46,068 bases of DNA from Candidatus Hydrogenedentota bacterium (lineage in GTDB: Bacteria; Hydrogenedentota; Hydrogenedentia; Hydrogenedentales; SLHB01). The notes beneath the pieces were generated by a model. That model did not search any database. It had not been told where the DNA came from and worked only from the letters and a program-made list of their open reading frames with translations. The translations under genes and the position numbers were made by a program. Below, piece after piece: positions 9,902 through 35,993 of the stretch (the stretch's first letter is position 1; the number at the start of each line of letters is the position of its first letter). The stretch lies in NCBI GenBank assembly GCA_016215105.1, contig JACRLJ010000004.1, positions 7,728 through 53,795 on the forward strand. Direction: 5' to 3'.

Positions 9902-10124
9902 GGGTTAATCACGCTTTCGGGAGATCGGCAACGGTGTGAAAACGGGATGGCATGCGCTATGCGCCGATGTTGACGAATAAGAATGCCGGAAGACCATGTC
10001 TCTGCGGGCATTAACCGGCCTGGATATCTGGTTTTGCGCTACCGTCAAGTCCGGGAGAGAAGATAGAATGATGGATACGCGAGTGCGGCAGTGCTCGGCA
10101 AGATACGTCGGAGGCGAACGAACG

Positions 10125-13100
10125 ATGAAAAGACTGAGGCGGACCAGCCGCAATCACGTAGACGGTGGTGTGACTTCTTTGTCTGCAGCATCTACGCCAC
10201 CCATGCGGAAGTTGCGGACAAAGAAGCTATTGGCTGCGGCGGCGCTGGGGCTCTTATCCGTGCTGTCATCCGGCATCGCCCTGGCGGCGCCGGCGGCAGT
10301 GCTCGAGGTCAACGAAGAGCAGTGGTACACGGACAACCGGGACACCGCCCTCGGCGGCGCCAGGCTCACCCGGTGGTTCGCGCCGTTGCCAGTGTTCTTC
10401 GAAGGCTGGAAATCCACGCCTCGGGACCAAATCGTCGATTACCAGTGGGATTTTGGCGATGGTTCGACGCAGTTTCACGGATTCAACGCCGCGCACGTCT
10501 ACGAGACACCGGGCAGCTACACCTGCACGCTGACGGTTACGGACAGCGCCAGCGCGACCAGCACGGCGACGATAGCCATTACGGTCTTGCCGCGAACGGG
10601 AACGACCTATTACGTGGATTCGCAACTCGGAAATGACGCCAATCCCGGCACGAGCCCCGGGGCCGGCGCGTGGAAGACCGCGGACAAAGCCTTCTCCGGC
10701 CTGACAACGAATTCGTATTCTCCGGGTACCACAATACTGTTCACACGCGGTCAATCATTTGACGTGACGGCAGGCCTTGTCGAGGTCGCCCATTGGAAGA
10801 CAAATTCGGGCTGGATGTTCGGGGCCTATGGCGCGGGCGCCAAACCGATAATCAAGCTCAAGAGCATCGCGGGCAGTTTGAACAGCATCTTCTACGTGAC
10901 CGGCGTGGGAATGGCTCATACCACGTTCCAGGACTTGGTTTTCGATTTGATGACCACTGCCGGACAACGCTGCGATTTCTTCACCCACCTCGCCGAAGCC
11001 TACGACGTGCTTTTCCTTCGTGTGGACCTCAAGAACATGTCGCAAGGCATTACGTTCTCCGGCGGCCTGACGGATCGCCGGCAAAGCGGCATTTTCATCG
11101 TGAACAGCACGATGTACGATTCGACTATGGTCGAGAATTTCGCCACCTCGGCGCGCATCGCCTTGCTGGGAAACCACTTTGACTACTCCGGAAACCACGT
11201 GAACTATTTGGCCTACTGCGACAAGGGCGTGATCGCGGGCAACATTTTCTCGAGGGCGGCGTTTGGCCGGGCCGCGTTGCGAATCGATGGCGAGCCGGAA
11301 AACACGCCGACCAACAATGTGCAAGTTAGCGACAACCACATCGTGGGATGGATCGACCCGATAAATGGGTACCCGACGGTGGGCTGGGACAATCCCGCAA
11401 GTCCCAATTACGATCCCAAGCAAGCGCACAATGGTGGAGGAACGCGGTACAACTTCTACTTGCTCTATCTCGCTCCAAACGCCCGGCTCCCGCAATTCAT
11501 GCAGGATGTGGTGGTCGAACGAAACACGATCATAAACGGTGAGCGGTTCATCTGGATGGGGGACTATTCGAACCTGACGATCCGCAACAACACGTTCTAT
11601 ACTCCCGACACCTCGCCTGACGCCTACCGATTCATCATCGGGCACGAATTCGAACTTCGCGCCGTACAGAACATCTACTTCCTCAACAACGTGGTTATTT
11701 CTAACGAGAACCGGAACGGCGGAACCCCCGGGCTCTTTGCGATCAATCATTTCACGGCGCCGACCAGCTACACCTTGATGGATGGCACGGTGGTTCCAAT
11801 GACCTATACCGGTCCACCAACGCACACCAACATCAACATCAAGGGCAACAAGTTCGTGATGCTGGGTCAGTCGGGCGGTTCTCGTTACCTCTATTTCAAT
11901 CAGGATGACGCGGCGCTGCGGGCGCAAGTCTTCACGGACAACAACACCATTTACACAAATACCGACCTGAATATGGTCCAGATCGGCGGTAATTGGCAGT
12001 CCGGCGGAACGTTGTCCACGCTCGCCGAGTGGAAGGCCGCCAGCGGACAAGACGCCACCACGAATACGAATCTATTCTCGCAAACGCCGCTGGCCGGCAC
12101 GCCTACCGTTCCGGCGAGTTCGACGGCCACCCCGATTGCCGTAAGTTACACCGGAGCGCAGGATCAGAGCGGATCGGGCCTCAAAGGGGTGTACCTGTGG
12201 GCGAAGAAGGGAACATCCGCCTGGGCGAAGACGGCCTTGTCGAGCACGACCGCTTCGGGCTCGTTCGATTTCATGGACACCACCGGCAATGACACGTATT
12301 ACTTCGCGCTGCAAGCCGAGGATAACGCCGGTCACCTATCAGCGCCGCCCGCGGGACTTGGCCAGGCCAGCACCGTGTTTGGGGTACCCGACACGACGGC
12401 CCCGAATCCGGGAACGGCCATCTCACCGGCGTCCATCAGCGGAGACATTACCGTGAGCTATTCCGGCGCGGCGGACGACGCGAACGGCTCCGGGCTGGCC
12501 GAGGTGCGCCTGTGGGTCAAGAAAGGCGCCGGAGGAACGTGGCTGGAAACAGCACAGGCTCAGGCCGGCGGCTCAGGCACGTTCAAATACACCGAGATGC
12601 AGGGAAATGACACGTACTACTTTGCAACGCGCGCCGCGGACATCGCGGGCAACTACTCGCCTGTCCCCACAGGGGACGGACTTTGCAGCACGTTGTACAC
12701 CGCCCCGACCACGGACCTCATTCTGTACGCAATGTTTGATGACACCCCGTCCGACGGCGTTCTGGATAGTTCGGCGTTCGGAAACAACGGAGTCTGCCCC
12801 GGGGGAACTTTCCCCACATTGACGACTGGCAAAGCCGGGAGCGCCTACAGCTTTGATGGCGTCGCCAACTATGCCGCTTTCAACAGTATCGCGCCCGCCA
12901 TCGCCACAAGCCAGAAGATTTCCATCTGCGTGTGGATCAACGCTCCCGCGATCTACACCAGTACCACCCGGCGCGGGATGATTCTTTCCGCGAATACGAA
13001 CGCGGGCGGAAACGTCATGACGATGTCGCTGGCAACGGCGACGGCCGGTGACAACAACACGCTGGCAATTGTCGACGGCGTTTCGTCGGCCTACGAGGGA

Positions 13101-16100
13101 ATGACGGGCACAATCGTCGCGGATGGCGCATGGCATCATGTCGCATATACGTCGGATGGCACGACCGGCAAAATCTATGTCGATGGCGTTATGAAGTCCA
13201 CGCACCACGTTGATTTCGTGTTCTCCGCCAACGATCAGTGGTCAGCGGGGCAAGAGTTCGACGGCGCCACCATCAGTGACATGTACCAAGGGCTGATGGA
13301 CGAACTGAAGGTGTGGAATGGCGTGTTGAGCGATGCGGACATCACGACGGTCTTCAATGGGGGCACGCCCGCGGGCGGCGGAACGCCACCCGCCGACACG
13401 ACCGCCCCGACGCCGGGCGCGCTGACTGCGCCCGCGGCAGCCGGAGCGAGTCCGATCACGATCTCGTATTCGGGCGCAGCGGACGCCGGGGGCAGCGGAT
13501 TGAAGGAAGTCCACCTCTGGGCGAAGAAAGGCGCAGGCGCGTGGGCGGACACGGGGTTGCTATCCACGGCCGCGTCCGGTTCATTCGACTATACCGGTAT
13601 GTCCGGAAACGCGGTCTATTCGTTTGACGTGCAGGCGTTTGACGTTGCGGGGAATTCATCGGCGACTCCCAGCGGGGCCGGCCAAGGGTCCACCATTTAC
13701 GACACCACGGCGCCGACGGCGCCGACCATCTCCGCGCCCGCGACATCAACATCCACGCCGATCACCGTTACCTATACGGGGGCCGCCGACACTGGCGGCA
13801 GCGGTCTGAATAGTGTGAGCTTGTGGGTGAAGAAAGAGACGGCCGGAACTTGGGCCAATACGGGTTTCTCTCAAACTACGGCCTCAGGCTCATTCAGCTT
13901 GCCCATCATCGCCGGTGACGGAACATACTTCTTCGCCACCGTTGCGCTGGACAACGCGGGCAACAGTTCCGCCGCAGCCTCGGGTGGCGGACAGGACTCC
14001 ACCATTTACAGCGGCACAGTCCCGACCGCCGCGACGATATCGGCGCCCGCGGCCGCGAAAGCGGCTCCCATCGCGCTGACATATTCGGGCGCGTCCACGG
14101 GCGCGAGCGGATTGAAGAAGGTAAGTCTGTGGGTCAAGAAAGCCACCGGAGGGACATGGGGCGATAGCGGCCTGTCGCAGACCACGGCTTCCGGTTCGTT
14201 CAACTACACCGGAATGACCGGCGAGGCCACCTACTTCTTCGCGACGCGCGTTCAAGACAACGGCGACAATCTTTCGCCAGCGCCCATTGGAGGCGGGTCG
14301 GCAAACACGATGTACGACACCACCGCGCCGGCGATCGGAACGATGACGTCCAAGACGAGCACGCGGACTTCACCAATATCGGTCAGCTACTCCGGTGTAA
14401 CCGATTCCGGCAGCGGACTTAAGCAAGCCAATTTGTGGGTGAAGATGGACGCCGGCGCGTGGGCGGACAGCGGTATGACCTTGACCACGGGGTCGGGCAC
14501 GTTCAGCTACGCGGTTACTACGGGCGTAGGGACGTATGCGTTCTCCGTCGTAGCGCAGGACAATAGCGGTAACGTGTCGGCCACGCCTACTGGCCTGGGT
14601 CTTACAAAAACCATTTACGACACGGTGAAACCCACAAAGGGGTCCACGACGACCGCAGCGCCAAAATCGTTGAACGGAACCGTCTACGTATCGGCCAGTC
14701 CAATTGCGGTTTCGTATAGCGGCGCGTCCGATAGCCTCAGTGGCCTGAAGCTGGTTCATCTTTGGGTGAAGAAGGCGCCCGGTACCTGGGTGGACACGGG
14801 ACAATCGTTGGGCACGGGCTCGGGAACATTTGATTACGCCGGGCTTACCACCGACGGAACGTATTCCTTCGCGACCGTCGCTGAAGACGACGCGGGGAAC
14901 CTCAATGACCCGCCGGTCGGTGACGGCGACCTAACCGTGATCTACGATTCCTCCGCTCCGGCGGCGCCGACGGCGTCATCCGCAGCGTCCGCCAACACCT
15001 CACCCATTGCAGTGACATACGCCGGGGTTGACGACCCGGGCAGCGGCACCAAGTCGGTCAAACTTTGGACGCGCAAGAACGCGGGCGCGTGGGCCGCTAC
15101 CTCGCAAACCGCCTCCACCGTAACAGGGTCGTTCTCGTACGCCCCGGCCGGGGACGGGACCTATTACTTCGCCGTCCAGGCGGCGAACAACGCCGGACTG
15201 AGTTCCACGGCCCCGTCAGGTAGTGGTGACACCAGCACGATCTACGACACGACCGCGCCTTCGGCAGGAACATTGACCGCTCCCGCCAAGGAGGATGGCC
15301 CGCCAATTTCGGTTACATACGCGGGCGCAGCGGACGGATCGGGTTCCGGGTTGAAGTCCGTGTATCTCTGGTTCAAGAAGGGAACGGGCGGGGTGTGGGC
15401 CAACACGGGCCTGACCAGTGCGGGCGCTTCAGGGTCGTTCTTCTTCAATGGTATGACCGGAAACGACACCTATTTCTTCGCGCTGCAGGCCGAAGATAAC
15501 GTGGGCAATATCTCCGCGGCGCCAACCGGCGCGGGTGGCGGAAGCACGGCGTTCGACACGAGCTTTACGCCCGGCAGCGCCAGCTCCCCGGCATACGCCA
15601 CGGCGGGCCCGCTTACGGTGAGCTATTCCGGCGCGCAGGACACGGCCAATGGCGGCCTAAAACTGGTACACTTGTGGTTCAAGAAAGGCGCCGCCGGGAC
15701 ATGGACCGATTCGGGCCTGACGGCGACAGGTGGAAGCGGTTCATTCCAGTTCAACACATTCACCGGTGATGACTGGTACTACTTCGCCACTCAGGCGGAG
15801 GCCAACAACGGCGCCACGACCTTGGCGGTTCAGGGTAATGGCGACACGGGAACGATTTTCGACACCACGCGGCCGCGGCCGGCCACCATATTCCCGCCCT
15901 ACCAATTCGCCAAAGGCGTCCCTGTCAAAATCACTTACCTTGGAGCGACGGACGACGGCAGCGGCTTGAAGACCTTGACGCTGTGGGTGAAACGCGGGCT
16001 GAGTGGCGTGTGGGAGAAGACGGCGCTGACGAGCACAACGCCGGACGGGACCTTTGATTTCACCGATGTGACCGGGAATAACCAATACTTTTTCTTCATT

Positions 16101-16181
16101 CAGGCGGAAGACAACGCCGGACTGAAGACGCCCGACCCAACCGACATGATTGTGTTCGGGACAACGACGCCCGGGACATAG
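10125..16181 (+). CDS. Giant secreted PKD / beta-helix / LamG protein with 11 tandem repeats
   Basis: This 2018-residue protein is exported: a long basic n-region precedes the hydrophobic core LLAAAALGLLSVLSSGIALA (about residues 35-54). ATG 10125 is chosen because GGAGG lies ten bases upstream; the inner ATG at 10203 has no such site. In order come a PKD-like domain (about 64-155, with YQWDFGDGS and TVTDSASA), a right-handed parallel beta-helix (about 160-645, with repeated N-N-turn motifs such as IRNNTFY and FLNNVVI), two ~100-residue repeats, a LamG/concanavalin-like domain (about 864-1087, with AWHHVAYTSDG and GLMDELKVWNG), then nine more repeats. Repeat hallmarks are DTTAP, PI-V-Y-SGA-D, GSGLK, LWVKKG, ASGSF, TYYFA-DNAGN and STIYDTTAP. 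No PEP-CTERM, LPXTG or T9SS tail is visible. It is probably a surface adhesin or carbohydrate-binding protein. Confidence 0.9.
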   Translation: MKRLRRTSRNHVDGGVTSLSAASTPPMRKLRTKKLLAAAALGLLSVLSSGIALAAPAAVLEVNEEQWYTDNRDTALGGARLTRWFAPLPVFFEGWKSTPRDQIVDYQWDFGDGSTQFHGFNAAHVYETPGSYTCTLTVTDSASATSTATIAITVLPRTGTTYYVDSQLGNDANPGTSPGAGAWKTADKAFSGLTTNSYSPGTTILFTRGQSFDVTAGLVEVAHWKTNSGWMFGAYGAGAKPIIKLKSIAGSLNSIFYVTGVGMAHTTFQDLVFDLMTTAGQRCDFFTHLAEAYDVLFLRVDLKNMSQGITFSGGLTDRRQSGIFIVNSTMYDSTMVENFATSARIALLGNHFDYSGNHVNYLAYCDKGVIAGNIFSRAAFGRAALRIDGEPENTPTNNVQVSDNHIVGWIDPINGYPTVGWDNPASPNYDPKQAHNGGGTRYNFYLLYLAPNARLPQFMQDVVVERNTIINGERFIWMGDYSNLTIRNNTFYTPDTSPDAYRFIIGHEFELRAVQNIYFLNNVVISNENRNGGTPGLFAINHFTAPTSYTLMDGTVVPMTYTGPPTHTNINIKGNKFVMLGQSGGSRYLYFNQDDAALRAQVFTDNNTIYTNTDLNMVQIGGNWQSGGTLSTLAEWKAASGQDATTNTNLFSQTPLAGTPTVPASSTATPIAVSYTGAQDQSGSGLKGVYLWAKKGTSAWAKTALSSTTASGSFDFMDTTGNDTYYFALQAEDNAGHLSAPPAGLGQASTVFGVPDTTAPNPGTAISPASISGDITVSYSGAADDANGSGLAEVRLWVKKGAGGTWLETAQAQAGGSGTFKYTEMQGNDTYYFATRAADIAGNYSPVPTGDGLCSTLYTAPTTDLILYAMFDDTPSDGVLDSSAFGNNGVCPGGTFPTLTTGKAGSAYSFDGVANYAAFNSIAPAIATSQKISICVWINAPAIYTSTTRRGMILSANTNAGGNVMTMSLATATAGDNNTLAIVDGVSSAYEGMTGTIVADGAWHHVAYTSDGTTGKIYVDGVMKSTHHVDFVFSANDQWSAGQEFDGATISDMYQGLMDELKVWNGVLSDADITTVFNGGTPAGGGTPPADTTAPTPGALTAPAAAGASPITISYSGAADAGGSGLKEVHLWAKKGAGAWADTGLLSTAASGSFDYTGMSGNAVYSFDVQAFDVAGNSSATPSGAGQGSTIYDTTAPTAPTISAPATSTSTPITVTYTGAADTGGSGLNSVSLWVKKETAGTWANTGFSQTTASGSFSLPIIAGDGTYFFATVALDNAGNSSAAASGGGQDSTIYSGTVPTAATISAPAAAKAAPIALTYSGASTGASGLKKVSLWVKKATGGTWGDSGLSQTTASGSFNYTGMTGEATYFFATRVQDNGDNLSPAPIGGGSANTMYDTTAPAIGTMTSKTSTRTSPISVSYSGVTDSGSGLKQANLWVKMDAGAWADSGMTLTTGSGTFSYAVTTGVGTYAFSVVAQDNSGNVSATPTGLGLTKTIYDTVKPTKGSTTTAAPKSLNGTVYVSASPIAVSYSGASDSLSGLKLVHLWVKKAPGTWVDTGQSLGTGSGTFDYAGLTTDGTYSFATVAEDDAGNLNDPPVGDGDLTVIYDSSAPAAPTASSAASANTSPIAVTYAGVDDPGSGTKSVKLWTRKNAGAWAATSQTASTVTGSFSYAPAGDGTYYFAVQAANNAGLSSTAPSGSGDTSTIYDTTAPSAGTLTAPAKEDGPPISVTYAGAADGSGSGLKSVYLWFKKGTGGVWANTGLTSAGASGSFFFNGMTGNDTYFFALQAEDNVGNISAAPTGAGGGSTAFDTSFTPGSASSPAYATAGPLTVSYSGAQDTANGGLKLVHLWFKKGAAGTWTDSGLTATGGSGSFQFNTFTGDDWYYFATQAEANNGATTLAVQGNGDTGTIFDTTRPRPATIFPPYQFAKGVPVKITYLGATDDGSGLKTLTLWVKRGLSGVWEKTALTSTTPDGTFDFTDVTGNNQYFFFIQAEDNAGLKTPDPTDMIVFGTTTPGT
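12073..16181 (+). repeat. Eleven ~305-bp in-frame repeats interrupted by a LamG insert
   Basis: Repeat units begin near 12073, 12391, then after the LamG domain at 13395, 13701, 14010, 14315, 14619, 14946, 15246, 15555 and 15861. Spacing is 300-327 bases, always in frame. Units share the protein pattern DTTAP...SGLK-V-LW-KK...SGSF...YYFA-AEDNAGN but have diverged at DNA level, so they are not recent copies. Confidence 0.85.
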
Positions 16182-30623: not shown

Positions 30624-31790
30624 TTAGTTGTCAAGGACTCTGCGAATGGTCTGGCTCAAGAGCGTGACTTGATAGGGCTTCTGGAGAAATCCGCTAACGC
30701 CGGCCTCGAGAAGGGCCTTGGAAATGGCATTAAGCTCGAGACCGCTGCAAATGACGACTTTCATGTTCGGACGAAGGCGCTTCAATTGAGGATACGTCTC
30801 GGCGCCTCCCATGACCGGCATGGCCATATCGAGCAGCGCCAGATCGATCGGGCCAGCGTGGGTCCGCGCAATATCCAGCGCCTCCTGGCCGTTGTGCGCC
30901 ACCAGGGTTCGGTAGCCGAGCTGGTCAAGAAGCTTCTGCGTCACGTCTAGAATAAGACTCTCGTCATCGATAAGCAGGACCGTCTCACTTCCCGAAGGCA
31001 GTGTCGAAGGGCTGGCAGCAACCGCAACGGGCTTCGCCGCCACGGCCGGAAAGTAGACCATGAAAGTGACGCCCTGTCCCTTGTCGCTATACGCCGAGAT
31101 GTGCCCACCCAAATCGGTCACCGCATGGGAGACTTGAGACAGGTCCGACCTTATCCCGAGCCCTGCCGGAGGCGCTGCGTCGAAGAGATGGGCAAGCGCT
31201 TCGGCGCTCATCCCCTGGCCGGTGTCTTCCACGGTCAGACACGCATATCGCCCCGGACGCAGCCCCGGCTTAGTCCGCGCAAAATCACCGTCAATCTCGA
31301 TGTTGCGGGTGACGATAACAATGCGCCCCTCATCTTCGATGGCCTCAACCGCGTTGATCGCCAGTGTCATCACGATCTGACTAAGCTGTGTCGGGTCCGC
31401 CTCGATGTCCCACAGGTCCGGCTCAATATAGCGGACCACGCGCACCCGCGGAGCAAGATCCTGCTCTTCGAGCAACAGGGCCTGGCTGGCAAACGCGTTC
31501 AGACTGAGGATTCGGCGCCGATCGTGCCCCCCTTGCGTGAATGCGAGAAGTTGCTGCGCCAGTTGGCCCGACTTCTCCGCGGCCGATTCGATCTCGCTCA
31601 GAAACTTCAACCCGGGATGCCCCGCGCCCACTGAACCGCGCACCAGCGCCGAGCAGCCCAACACAACGCCCATCAAGTTGTTCACGTCGTGCGCCGTGTT
31701 CCGCGCCATCATGAGCGTTGCTTTGAGATGGGAAACCGCGTTAGCCGGGTCCATTACGGATGGGGTGTTGCCAGATTCTGTGTTTACCAT
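30624..31790 (-). CDS. Soluble hybrid histidine kinase (HisKA-like, ATPase, receiver)
   Basis: This 388-residue protein autophosphorylates on His and passes the phosphate to its own receiver. In order: HisKA-like region with His34 in TAHDVNNLMG; an ATPase domain with the N box (INAVEAIED) and VEDTGQGMS; receiver with VLLIDDE, Asp321 in LLDMAMPVMGG and FLQKPYQ. It has no transmembrane or PAS/sensor domain, so its input is not visible. ATG 31790 is chosen because GGAG sits six bases upstream. An extra in-frame stretch to 31925 lacks a site and reads as low-complexity sequence. It is divergent from the GGDEF gene at 32152, which suggests joint control. Confidence 0.9.
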   Translation of the reverse strand: MVNTESGNTPSVMDPANAVSHLKATLMMARNTAHDVNNLMGVVLGCSALVRGSVGAGHPGLKFLSEIESAAEKSGQLAQQLLAFTQGGHDRRRILSLNAFASQALLLEEQDLAPRVRVVRYIEPDLWDIEADPTQLSQIVMTLAINAVEAIEDEGRIVIVTRNIEIDGDFARTKPGLRPGRYACLTVEDTGQGMSAEALAHLFDAAPPAGLGIRSDLSQVSHAVTDLGGHISAYSDKGQGVTFMVYFPAVAAKPVAVAASPSTLPSGSETVLLIDDESLILDVTQKLLDQLGYRTLVAHNGQEALDIARTHAGPIDLALLDMAMPVMGGAETYPQLKRLRPNMKVVICSGLELNAISKALLEAGVSGFLQKPYQVTLLSQTIRRVLDN

Positions 31791-32151
31791 TGCGGCTCCA
31801 CTGCTGGTCGTACTCCGCACTGCACAACCGTGTGTCCTGCGCCCCAGGATCTTGTAGACACGGCCATCGGACGGCATGTCCCCGCCCCTCTCAGAAAGCC
31901 TAGCGCACCTCGTCCAGCCAGTCAACTGGCGTGACGGCGGAGAGAACTCTCCCTCTCGGCTCGTTTCCCGGGCTGTTCCTGGGCAATCGCCCTCAGCCCC
32001 CGGCGGAGAATATGTCCGCTTCCGTTACCTCGCTGGCGTCCAGCCGATGGCGCGCCCCGAAACATCGCTCTTGACAAAGTGGAACCTCTTGGAGTCAATA
32101 TTAGCAAAATGGCGCTTGTGACGCACGTCCTTATGGAGATACCTCAGTCTC
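31791..32151 (+). other. 361-base divergent promoter region
   Basis: No gene is seen between the minus-strand kinase start and the plus-strand GGDEF start. A perfect TTGACA at 32071-32076 lies in an AT-richer part near the GGDEF gene. The remaining bases show no clear operator. Confidence 0.5.
32071..32099 (+). promoter_or_regulatory. Candidate promoter of the GGDEF gene
   Basis: A perfect TTGACA (32071-32076) is followed after 17 bases by GTCAAT (32094-32099), a 3/6 -10, in an AT-rich stretch. It leaves a leader of about 45-50 bases before the GTG at 32152. Confidence 0.4.
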
Positions 32152-33765
32152 GTGAAACTGCAAACGAAAATACAAGTACTGTGCGTGATGATCATGCTCG
32201 GCTTCACCGCCCTGGCCTACGGCGTACAACGCTACTTGGTCTTCTCCAGCTTCCTAAAGATCGAGTCCAGCCACGCGGAGGCCGACATCCAACGATGCAT
32301 CGAGGCCGTAACGCGCGAACAGGAGCATCTCGCCAATTCCGTCTCCGACTGGGCCATGTGGGATGATACGTATCGGTTTGTATCTGACAACAATCAAGCC
32401 TATATCGATTCCACGCTCGCCGAAAATGCCCTGGACACCGGGGTCAAGGTCGACCTCCTGTTCATTCTGGACCCCGCTGGCAAGGTCGTCTGGAAGCGGC
32501 TAAAGGACTTGAAAAGTAACGAGGCGCTGTCCTTGCCCGAATTTCCCCCCGATCAATGGCCGGCGGATAGCCCCTTACTCGCCCGCAATTCGGCCAAAGG
32601 CGCTGCCGGCGGAATCGTACTCACGGATCACGGCCCCATGATTGTGGCTTCCGGCCAGGTGCTTCCCAGCAACGGGCAGGGCGCGTCCCGGGGGTCGCTG
32701 GTCATGGGCCGCTTCTTGAACGAAGATGCGGTGAAGAAACTATCCGAACAGACTCGCGTGGAATTCTCGGTCTGGCAAATGAACCGGGATACGCTGCCTG
32801 GGCCGGAAGAGCAAATTGCTGACCAGATAGCGGTCGACAAGACTCTCGTTGTCGAGGACTCCGATGGGAAAAAGCTCCGCGTGTACCACACCTATCCTGA
32901 CGCCCAGCAACACGCCGCGCTTCTAGTCTGTGCGCTCGTCCCGCGCGATGTTAGCAATCAGGGCCGTGAGGCCATGTGGGTGTCCGTGGTAACACTGATC
33001 GCTGCGGGCCTTGTCCTAACCGTCATTCTCCTGGCGGTGCTGCAGCGCAACGTTGTGCAGCCCGTGGCGGGGCTTACGCGGAGTCTCGCAGGTATTGTGA
33101 ACAGTCAAGACCTTGCCCGGCGGTTGCCTGCGTCGCGCGCCGACGAAATTGGAATTCTCACGCGCGAACTCAATGGCATGCTGGAACGCCTGGAAAGGGA
33201 CAGCGTCGAACGAGAGCGATTGTCCAGGGAATTGGAGCGTCTCTCGCAGCATGACTCATTGACCGGCCTGGCCAACCGCCGGCAGTTCGACGAGGCAATG
33301 ACTCGAGAGTGGAATCGCGCCATGCGCACCCAGGATTCTCTCGCTTTTCTGATGATCGACGTGGATTGCTTCAAGGACTTCAATGACCACTACGGCCACC
33401 AAGCCGGCGACGCGGTGCTGCAAAAGATTGCGTCCGTGTTAGGGGTGTACACACGCCGGGCCATTGATTTGGCCGCGCGATACGGTGGCGAGGAGTTTGC
33501 CCTCGTCCTGCCCGGAATGAACTGGAAGGACGCGGGCAGACTCGCGGAAAACCTCCGGGCGGATGTCGAAGCGCTGAACATCGAGCACATAAAAAGCCAT
33601 ACCGGTGGCCGGGTAACGATCAGCCTCGGATTTGCCGCGACGATCCCGCGCCAAAGTTCCTCGATGTTCTCGTTCATTTCCGAAGCCGACCAAGCTCTCT
33701 ACCACGCCAAGAAAGCCGGAAGAAACCAGGTACGAGGCGCGGAGGAGCCAAAGGGAGACCTATAA
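32152..33765 (+). CDS. CHASE4-HAMP-GGDEF membrane diguanylate cyclase
   Basis: This 537-residue protein makes cyclic di-GMP from two GTP. It has a first membrane helix (about residues 8-22), a periplasmic CHASE4-type sensor (with DWAMWDDTYRFV), a second helix (about 280-303), HAMP, a short coiled linker and the cyclase domain. The active loop is GGEEF (445-449), the canonical form. The product-inhibition site R-x-x-D (RAID, 436-439) lies five residues before it, so feedback control is likely. The start is GTG; GGAG lies about 13 bases upstream, which is somewhat far. The gene is followed by a degenerate HD-GYP gene. Confidence 0.93.
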   Translation: MKLQTKIQVLCVMIMLGFTALAYGVQRYLVFSSFLKIESSHAEADIQRCIEAVTREQEHLANSVSDWAMWDDTYRFVSDNNQAYIDSTLAENALDTGVKVDLLFILDPAGKVVWKRLKDLKSNEALSLPEFPPDQWPADSPLLARNSAKGAAGGIVLTDHGPMIVASGQVLPSNGQGASRGSLVMGRFLNEDAVKKLSEQTRVEFSVWQMNRDTLPGPEEQIADQIAVDKTLVVEDSDGKKLRVYHTYPDAQQHAALLVCALVPRDVSNQGREAMWVSVVTLIAAGLVLTVILLAVLQRNVVQPVAGLTRSLAGIVNSQDLARRLPASRADEIGILTRELNGMLERLERDSVERERLSRELERLSQHDSLTGLANRRQFDEAMTREWNRAMRTQDSLAFLMIDVDCFKDFNDHYGHQAGDAVLQKIASVLGVYTRRAIDLAARYGGEEFALVLPGMNWKDAGRLAENLRADVEALNIEHIKSHTGGRVTISLGFAATIPRQSSSMFSFISEADQALYHAKKAGRNQVRGAEEPKGDL

Positions 33766-33818: not shown

Positions 33819-33876
33819 TTTGCCCACGCACGGCCGGGTTGATAAGATACCGCCAACAAAACGGAAGGAGTCGAGC

Positions 33877-34641
33877 ATGCTCAAGCGTGTGGCGGTACTA
33901 AGCAAAGATGATGCGTTTCACAAGGACGTCGCCCGCGCCGCAAAAGGCAAGGGAATCGAAGTCTTTGGCACGGCCGCCGCGGCAAAACTCCCCCACGCGA
34001 CCGTTGCGGCGATCGGCGACAAGAACTCCGCCGCGGCATTGATTAGGGCGGCGTCCGTCCTTGGTACGCGCCAAGATCAACTGCTCGAGTTGCTTGCGGA
34101 GGCCATCGACTGCCCAGAAAGACTCCTGCCGGGGAGTTCTCCGCGAATTCGAGACCATGCAACCCGTTTGGCCAAGGCCCTCAAACTCAATGATGATGAC
34201 CAGCTCACGCTCGAACGCGGCGCCCTCCTGCGCGATATCGGCAAACTCAAAATACACAACGAGGTCCTGCTCAAATTCGACGTCCTCACCTACGACGAAT
34301 GGCGGCATCTGCACCAGCACACCTCGTTTGGAGCAGACCTCGCCGCCCAACTGGGCGATCTGAAGGATATCGCCACCATCGTGCAAAGCCACCATGAATG
34401 CTATGACGGAACCGGGTATCCCAAGGGACTGGAAGGCGACTCAATTCCGTTCCTCGCCCGCGCCGTAAAGGTCATCGACGTCTATTGCGCCATGACCAGC
34501 CCGCGCGGCTACCGTAGCGGTAAAACGTCGCACGCGGCGGCCCTGGAGTACATTAAGAGCGAAAGCGGGAAACATTTTGACCCCGAGATCGTCAAGGCCT
34601 TCGTTACGGGCAAAGTCGCCAAACCAAATCGTACGGCGTAG
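33877..34641 (+). CDS. Degenerate HD-GYP domain protein
   Basis: This 254-residue soluble protein has a ~75-residue N-terminal segment (LKRVAVLSKDDAFHKDVARA) of receiver-like size but without a clear phospho-Asp, then an HD-GYP domain. The GYP part is intact: SHHECYDGTGYPKGL (His172, His173, Asp177). The first His of the metal site is present (His94 in RDHATRLA). However, the HD dyad reads LLRDIGK, so the metal-binding His is Arg119, and the DVYDALTS-type box reads DVYCAMTS with Cys204 in place of Asp. Phosphodiesterase activity is therefore doubtful; a binding or sensing role is possible. ATG 33877 follows GGAAGGAG by six bases. Confidence 0.85.
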   Translation: MLKRVAVLSKDDAFHKDVARAAKGKGIEVFGTAAAAKLPHATVAAIGDKNSAAALIRAASVLGTRQDQLLELLAEAIDCPERLLPGSSPRIRDHATRLAKALKLNDDDQLTLERGALLRDIGKLKIHNEVLLKFDVLTYDEWRHLHQHTSFGADLAAQLGDLKDIATIVQSHHECYDGTGYPKGLEGDSIPFLARAVKVIDVYCAMTSPRGYRSGKTSHAAALEYIKSESGKHFDPEIVKAFVTGKVAKPNRTA

Positions 34642-34931: not shown

Positions 34932-35993
34932 ATGGCTGCTAAAGTCGAAGATGCAAAAGTAAAAGCGTTGGATATCGCCGTCGCCCAACTTGAGAAACAG
35001 TTCGGGCGGGGTACCTTGCTACGCCTCGGAGATGACCATTTCGAGCAGAAAGTCCGGGCTATCTCGACCGGAAGTCTGTCCTTGGACATTTGCACCGGCG
35101 TCGGCGGGTTCCCTGTTGGCCGCGTGATTGAAGTGTTTGGTCCCGAATCTTCCGGAAAGACGACCTTGGCCCTGCACGTCGTCGCCAACTCCCAGAAAGA
35201 CGGCGGTATCGCCTGCTTTATCGACGCGGAACATGCCCTGGACCCAACCTTTGCGGCCAAAATCGGCGTTGATATTGACAATTTGCTTGTTTCTCAGCCG
35301 GACACCGCCGAACAGGCCCTGGAAATATGCGAAACCCTGGTGCGCAGCAACGCCGTGGACGTCATCGTGATCGACTCCGTGGCGGCGCTGGTGCCCCGCG
35401 CGGAAGTCGAAGGCGAAATGGGTGACTCGCATATGGGCCTCCAGGCCCGCCTGATGTCGCAAGCCCTGCGCAAACTTACCGCCTCGATCAGCCGTTCGCG
35501 CACCTTGGTCATATTCATTAACCAAATCCGCGACAAGATTGGCGTCATGTTCGGCAGTCCGGAAACCACCACGGGCGGGCGCGCCCTGAAGTTCTACGCC
35601 AGCATGCGCATCGACGTCAGGCGTATCGCGAGCATCAAAGAACGCGAGCAAGACGTTGGTAACCGTGTACGCGCCAAGGTGGTCAAGAACAAGGTAAGTC
35701 CGCCGTTCAAACAGGCGGAATTCGACATTCTATTTGGCGAAGGCATCTCCAGAGAAGGCGATATCCTCGATCTCGCGACAGAAGAGAAGATCATCCAGAA
35801 AAGCGGCGCTTGGTTCTCGATGAATGGTGACAATCTCGGCCAGGGCCGGGAAAATACGCGCCAATACCTTAAGGACCATCCCGAACTGATGGACCAGTTG
35901 CGCGCGCAGATCATTAAGAAGCGAGGCCTCGAGTGGTCCACCTCTACCGCGGATCTGGCCGAGCCGGAAGAGAAGAACGCTGCACAAAAATAA
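34932..35993 (+). CDS. recA: Recombinase RecA
   Basis: This 353-residue protein forms filaments on single-stranded DNA and drives homologous recombination and LexA cleavage. Walker A is GPESSGKTT (70-78, Lys76), with further hallmarks [84 protein letters not shown] and an acidic C-terminus. Length and motifs match standard RecA. GGGGAG precedes the ATG by seven bases. The AsmA-like gene starts one base after its stop. Confidence 0.98.

Follow-up and report, generated by a model that had tools for sequence, protein, structure and literature searches.

The window analysed here, a stretch of 46,068 nucleotides from a Candidatus Hydrogenedentota bacterium, encodes a degenerate HD-GYP protein of 254 amino acids (P0001) that stands between a diguanylate cyclase gene and recA (Table 1). 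Pfam profile PF13487 (HD_5) covers residues 76-238 (E 2.5e-32), and the same profile was found in 34 of 34 members of the family to which the protein belongs. An AlphaFold2 model run on the family alignment (mean pLDDT 92.7) predicted a 50-residue strand-helix-strand-strand unit, followed by a 30-residue helix and then the HD-GYP domain. Foldseek matched this model to 4R8Z, 4MCW and 9RBZ, with PA4781, PmGH and DvhD as the top matches (E 1e-10 against 9RBZ; TM about 0.7 against PmGH). The N-terminal 50 residues had no Pfam match and no receiver (REC) match in the window protein or in the family members scanned. A profile of this region searched against the PDB returned response regulators at E 0.02-0.5, making it weakly receiver-like, and the idea of a REC-HD-GYP response regulator was dropped for want of a convincing match. 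A few family members (L035, L036, L038 and L043) lack the N-terminal unit.

Table 1. Features of the HD-GYP locus and of its surroundings, in window positions; residue numbers refer to the 254-residue protein.
Feature	Positions	Strand	Basis
Degenerate HD-GYP protein, 254 aa (P0001)	33877-34641	+	translation without stop
Shine-Dalgarno-like AAGGAG, 6 nt ahead of ATG 33877	33865-33870	+	read from sequence
N-terminal mini-domain, residues 1-50, strand-helix-strand-strand	33877-34026	+	AF2 model
Long stalk helix, residues 52-81 (30 residues)	34030-34119	+	AF2 model
Ser87 at the PmGH metal ligand H189 position; His in 0 family members	34135-34137	+	alignment, counts
Arg119-Asp120, HD dyad position (PmGH H221 D222)	34231-34236	+	alignment
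His148, retained equivalent of PmGH H250	34318-34320	+	alignment
HHECYDGTGYP, residues 172-182 (PmGH H276, H277, Y285)	34390-34422	+	translation, alignment
DVYCAMTSPRGYR, residues 201-213; ligand D201 kept, Cys204 for second-shell Asp	34477-34515	+	translation, alignment
CHASE4-HAMP-GGDEF diguanylate cyclase, GGEEF motif, 111 nt upstream, same strand	32152-33765	+	Pfam
recA, downstream neighbour	34932-35993	+	Pfam
HATPase_c with C-terminal receiver, no HisKA by Pfam	30624-31925	-	
2061-aa protein with PKD, LamG-like and beta-helix domains	9996-16181	+	

We mapped the metal site by sequence alignment on PmGH, the trinuclear phosphodiesterase of Persephonella marina, which has the same fold (4MCW/4MDZ; numbering from PMC4159591). 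Its eight ligands are E185, H189, H221, D222, H250, H276, H277 and D305 (PMC4159591). The window protein keeps the equivalents of D222, K225, H250, H276, H277, D305 and R314 as D120, K123, H148, H172, H173, D201 and R210, and Y285 and K317 correspond to Y181 and R213; the E81/K123 pair matches D183/K225 of PmGH. At E185, H189, H221 and D308, however, it has L83, S87, R119 and C204. The translation agrees with the first-pass annotation in that HHE (172-174) and DGTGYP (177-182) are intact, so that the HHExxDGxGYP motif is present, and GYP is invariant across 40 members. Also as annotated, Arg119 (codon CGC, 34231-34233) occupies the position of the HD histidine, which is His in 58 of 60 other HD-GYP domains aligned, with D120 intact, and Cys204 (codon TGC, 34486-34488) stands where most other aligned HD-GYP domains have Asp.

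The list of lost metal ligands drawn up from these residues needs correcting at two points. PmGH D308 belongs to the second shell, where it hydrogen bonds to R192 and to ligand H189, and the true ligand, D305, is kept as D201; the PmGH structure and mutagenesis thus reject Cys204 as a lost ligand, leaving it as the replacement of a conserved second-shell Asp (PMC4159591). What had been missed is Ser87 at ligand H189, which means that both the HD dyad and the first His ligand have lost their histidine, to R119 and S87, respectively. The lost positions (H189, H221 and the H189-supporting D308) cluster on the HD side of the metal centre, with the GYP side retained. Replacing H189, H221 or D308 by alanine removes essentially all activity of PmGH, and uncleaved c-di-GMP was captured in a PmGH monomer having only the GYP-side (G-site) Fe (PMC4159591). 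A missing H189 is not by itself proof of inactivity, because RpfG is active despite lacking the equivalents of E185 and H189 (PMC4159591). The loss of E185 was rejected as a diagnostic, Glu being present there in just 9% of other HD-GYPs.

A protein search of 60 relatives and a profile search over 68 Hydrogenedentota genomes identified an orthologue in 40 of the 68, with a further contig-edge fragment in G022. Family members score 278-380 bits in the profile search and other HD-GYPs no more than 191, and the 40 members are monophyletic (FastTree support 0.999). No close relative from outside the phylum was found among the best 80 of 298 matches in a scan of 84,980 species (one genome per species) based on two short peptide patterns, which suggests a subfamily restricted to Hydrogenedentota, among the matches listed. 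The Hydrogenedentota gene also occurs in one MAG that bears a Nitrospiraceae label (L079; JAACEL010000059.1); this label is probably wrong, because the locus is the same as that of G011, a genome from the window genome's own GTDB family. Spread via plasmids or phages was discarded, since only distant HD-GYPs were found there (<60% identity, mostly <40%). Close pairs of family genes have a dN of 0.10-0.23 against a dS of about 1 or more, and the gene is therefore under purifying selection.

Counts across the family show which of the unusual residues define it. The PmGH H189 position is non-His in all 39 readable members, compared with 97% His in other HD-GYPs, and the H221 position is His in 25% of members, compared with 98%. 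Position 204 is Cys in 39 of 40 members and Asn in the other, whereas at position 119 there are 27 members with Arg, 10 with His and one apiece with Ser, Met and Ile. By the comparison of homologues that the first-pass annotation had called for, Cys204 is thus conserved and Arg119 only in part; the latter is not itself the defining feature, because ten members have His. Parsimony on one FastTree tree puts Arg119 at the family root (7 changes, versus 9 for His), as it does Cys204, with His119 regained in places, so that the standing of Arg119 as a family hallmark is weakened even though the root is Arg. Base errors, which had been considered as a source of these residues, do not explain their recurrence in orthologues from separate assemblies. 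Nine members retain six of seven core ligands. The GYP-proximal ligands D120, H148, H172 and H173 are kept in most members, and K123, E81 and most G-side ligands are strongly constrained. The early-branching members L047 and L048 have also lost the equivalents of D120, H148 and H173, and they keep all the nucleotide contacts.

Other variant active sites were seen alongside the family. The window genome has a second, heavily degenerate HD-GYP (L001; G000:C156:5542-6024) with CQ for HD and QN for HH. In HD-GYPs of Obscuribacterales/Melainabacteria (L110, L112, L119, L121, L132 and L139), His occupies the D308 position (DAYHAM) and Leu/Val stands for the Lys of HDxGK with HD intact, another variant active-site class. 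PA2572, the YN-GYP protein of Pseudomonas aeruginosa, is likewise an HD-GYP variant with an altered HD dyad, likened here by description only; it is receiver-linked and its substitution is different.

The gene neighbourhood of the window copy is a local one. Neither the upstream GGDEF gene nor recA adjoins the family gene in 34 other loci compared, apart from one more GGDEF, and an operon with either was therefore rejected. Several Hydrogenedentota families share the order recD2 - DUF2569 - HD-GYP - tlpA-like (opposite strand) - rarA/mgsA (opposite strand), which is not found around the window copy and is apparently ancestral. recD2 lies upstream in 7 of the 34 loci (L064, L078, L081, L083, L084, L088 and L091), and rarA downstream in 9 (L064, L068, L071, L074, L075, L081, L083, L092 and L105). 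At three loci the family gene is adjoined by a divergent gene for a PilZ-YkuD L,D-transpeptidase fusion (L069:136-1773, L070:2410-3957 and L072:834-2318), possibly a c-di-GMP-controlled cell-wall enzyme.

The nucleotide pocket has been conserved where the metal site has not. Five nucleotide contacts, Y181, M206, R210, Y212 and R213, are invariant in 40 of 40 members, and the last four of them lie inside DVYCAMTSPRGYR (201-213). With 22 of 183 domain columns invariant, the chance of all five contacts being invariant is 1.6e-5, a figure to be read knowing that these sites are well conserved in active enzymes too. A similar combination is seen in DvhD of Desulfovibrio vulgaris (9RBZ, 9RC0), which has SQ for HD, MN for HH and the motif CAMVRPRSYR; it shows no metal density, binds c-di-GMP without metal at a Kd of 99 nM and does not hydrolyse it (PMC13090378). 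Binding of c-di-GMP alters the dimerisation and stalk geometry of DvhD, which also accepts 3'3'-cGAMP (PMC13090378).

Both proteins have lost the HD dyad and kept GYP, and they share CAMxxPRxYR, a helical stalk before the domain and Cys at the PmGH D308 position. The canonical-site residues Y621, M646, R650, Y652 and L577 of DvhD correspond to Y181, M206, R210, Y212 and L137, all invariant in the family, whereas its contacts K582 and Y523 are not shared (W142 and L83 in the window protein) and E668 is paired with E229 by one alignment, or with S230 if the gap is shifted by one residue. DvhD is a membrane protein with dCache and PAS domains; the window protein, in contrast, lacks a membrane or PAS part and has its 50-residue N-terminal domain instead. 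Catalytic metal ligands are missing from both, but not the same ones: in DvhD HH is gone and the first His present, and the reverse holds for the window protein. Because DvhD and the family are not sisters on the FastTree tree, the likeness is probably convergent, or else combines a retained ancestral Met and Arg with a parallel D-to-C change.

On the basis of these comparisons, we propose, with a probability of roughly 0.6, that the protein is a conserved, catalytically crippled HD-GYP acting as a c-di-GMP receptor in the manner of DvhD. Sensing of c-di-GMP rather than its degradation is most likely, because part of the metal site has been lost. The protein would be missing the portion of the metal centre that hydrolysis requires (H189, mostly H221, with D308 changed to Cys) and would bind c-di-GMP in the canonical cleft without cleaving it, with Y181 contacting a phosphate, R210, R213 and Y212 contacting base and phosphate, and M206 packing on a guanine. 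Binding may be reported via the stalk helix (52-81) and the small N-terminal domain, with changed dimerisation, as in DvhD, as the probable output. A single structural metal may remain on the GYP-proximal side (D120, H148, H172 and H173); nucleotide binding is probably not metal-dependent, because the earliest-branching lineage lost three of the four ligands there and keeps the contacts. Arg119 might supply the positive charge of the missing metal, which is a guess, and one weakened by the occurrence of His, Ser, Met or Ile at this position in other members. A c-di-GMP-binding role had already been suggested from ligand loss and a retained GYP surface; family conservation and the DvhD precedent speak for it, and the part of that argument built on Cys204 falls away, as this is not a ligand position. 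The window genome has 16 GGDEF, 9 PilZ, 0 EAL and 9 HD-GYP matches, and several of its HD-GYPs have intact motifs, so that c-di-GMP is probably made in this organism and can be degraded by other enzymes.

We weighed these data against other readings. An altered yet active phosphodiesterase would use a mono- or binuclear G/M centre (D120, H148, H172, H173 and D201) to cut c-di-GMP, pGpG or some other nucleotide, and Arg119 would have newly taken on a catalytic or phosphate-binding role. The strong conservation of the G-side ligands and the E81/K123 pair could mean that some metal chemistry survives, several members revert to His119, and RpfG works without two of the same residues; yet either H221A or D308A is enough to remove essentially all PmGH activity and the earliest-branching members are also without D120, H148 and H173 equivalents, and we regard this reading as unlikely. 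It is similarly improbable that the protein is a scaffold or partner-binding protein that has given up nucleotide binding and uses the GYP surface for protein contacts: conservation of the GYP loop, and of W142 and E186 within the family, is consistent with such a role, but five invariant nucleotide contacts beside varying metal positions would be unexpected for an unused pocket.

The same pocket might instead receive another ligand, such as 3'3'-cGAMP or pGpG. The best PDB sequence match of the window protein is the 3'3'-cGAMP-specific phosphodiesterase V-cGAP3 (5Z7C; E 2e-31), which is an active enzyme with the HD motif intact, unlike the window protein, and both V-cGAP3 and DvhD accept 3'3'-cGAMP. 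Conservation of the guanine-binding R210/R213 and the many GGDEF proteins in the genome (all types, Hypr included, counted together) argue against a switch of ligand, which we consider quite improbable. A sequencing error or decaying pseudogene has a negligible chance of being correct and is refuted by conservation across genomes, with intact ORFs in 40 of them, the same residues in independent assemblies and a dN/dS of about 0.1.

That degenerate GGDEF and EAL proteins can act as receptors is well established; for HD-GYPs, the single structurally proven case that we found is DvhD. The subfamily described here is real, conserved, phylum-specific and degenerate, and for its likely function there is one close precedent from experiment. 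If a second, apparently independent family were confirmed, HD-GYP receptors would be seen to arise repeatedly, and the signature of CAMxxPRxYR with a lost first His would find candidate receptors that are now annotated as phosphodiesterases. A more far-reaching version, which we hold to be a long shot, is a soluble phylum-specific c-di-GMP receptor with Arg in place of a catalytic metal, which evolved out of a phosphodiesterase separately from DvhD and is tied to genome maintenance through the apparently ancestral recD2/rarA order; if this were true, DNA repair in Hydrogenedentota would receive input from c-di-GMP.
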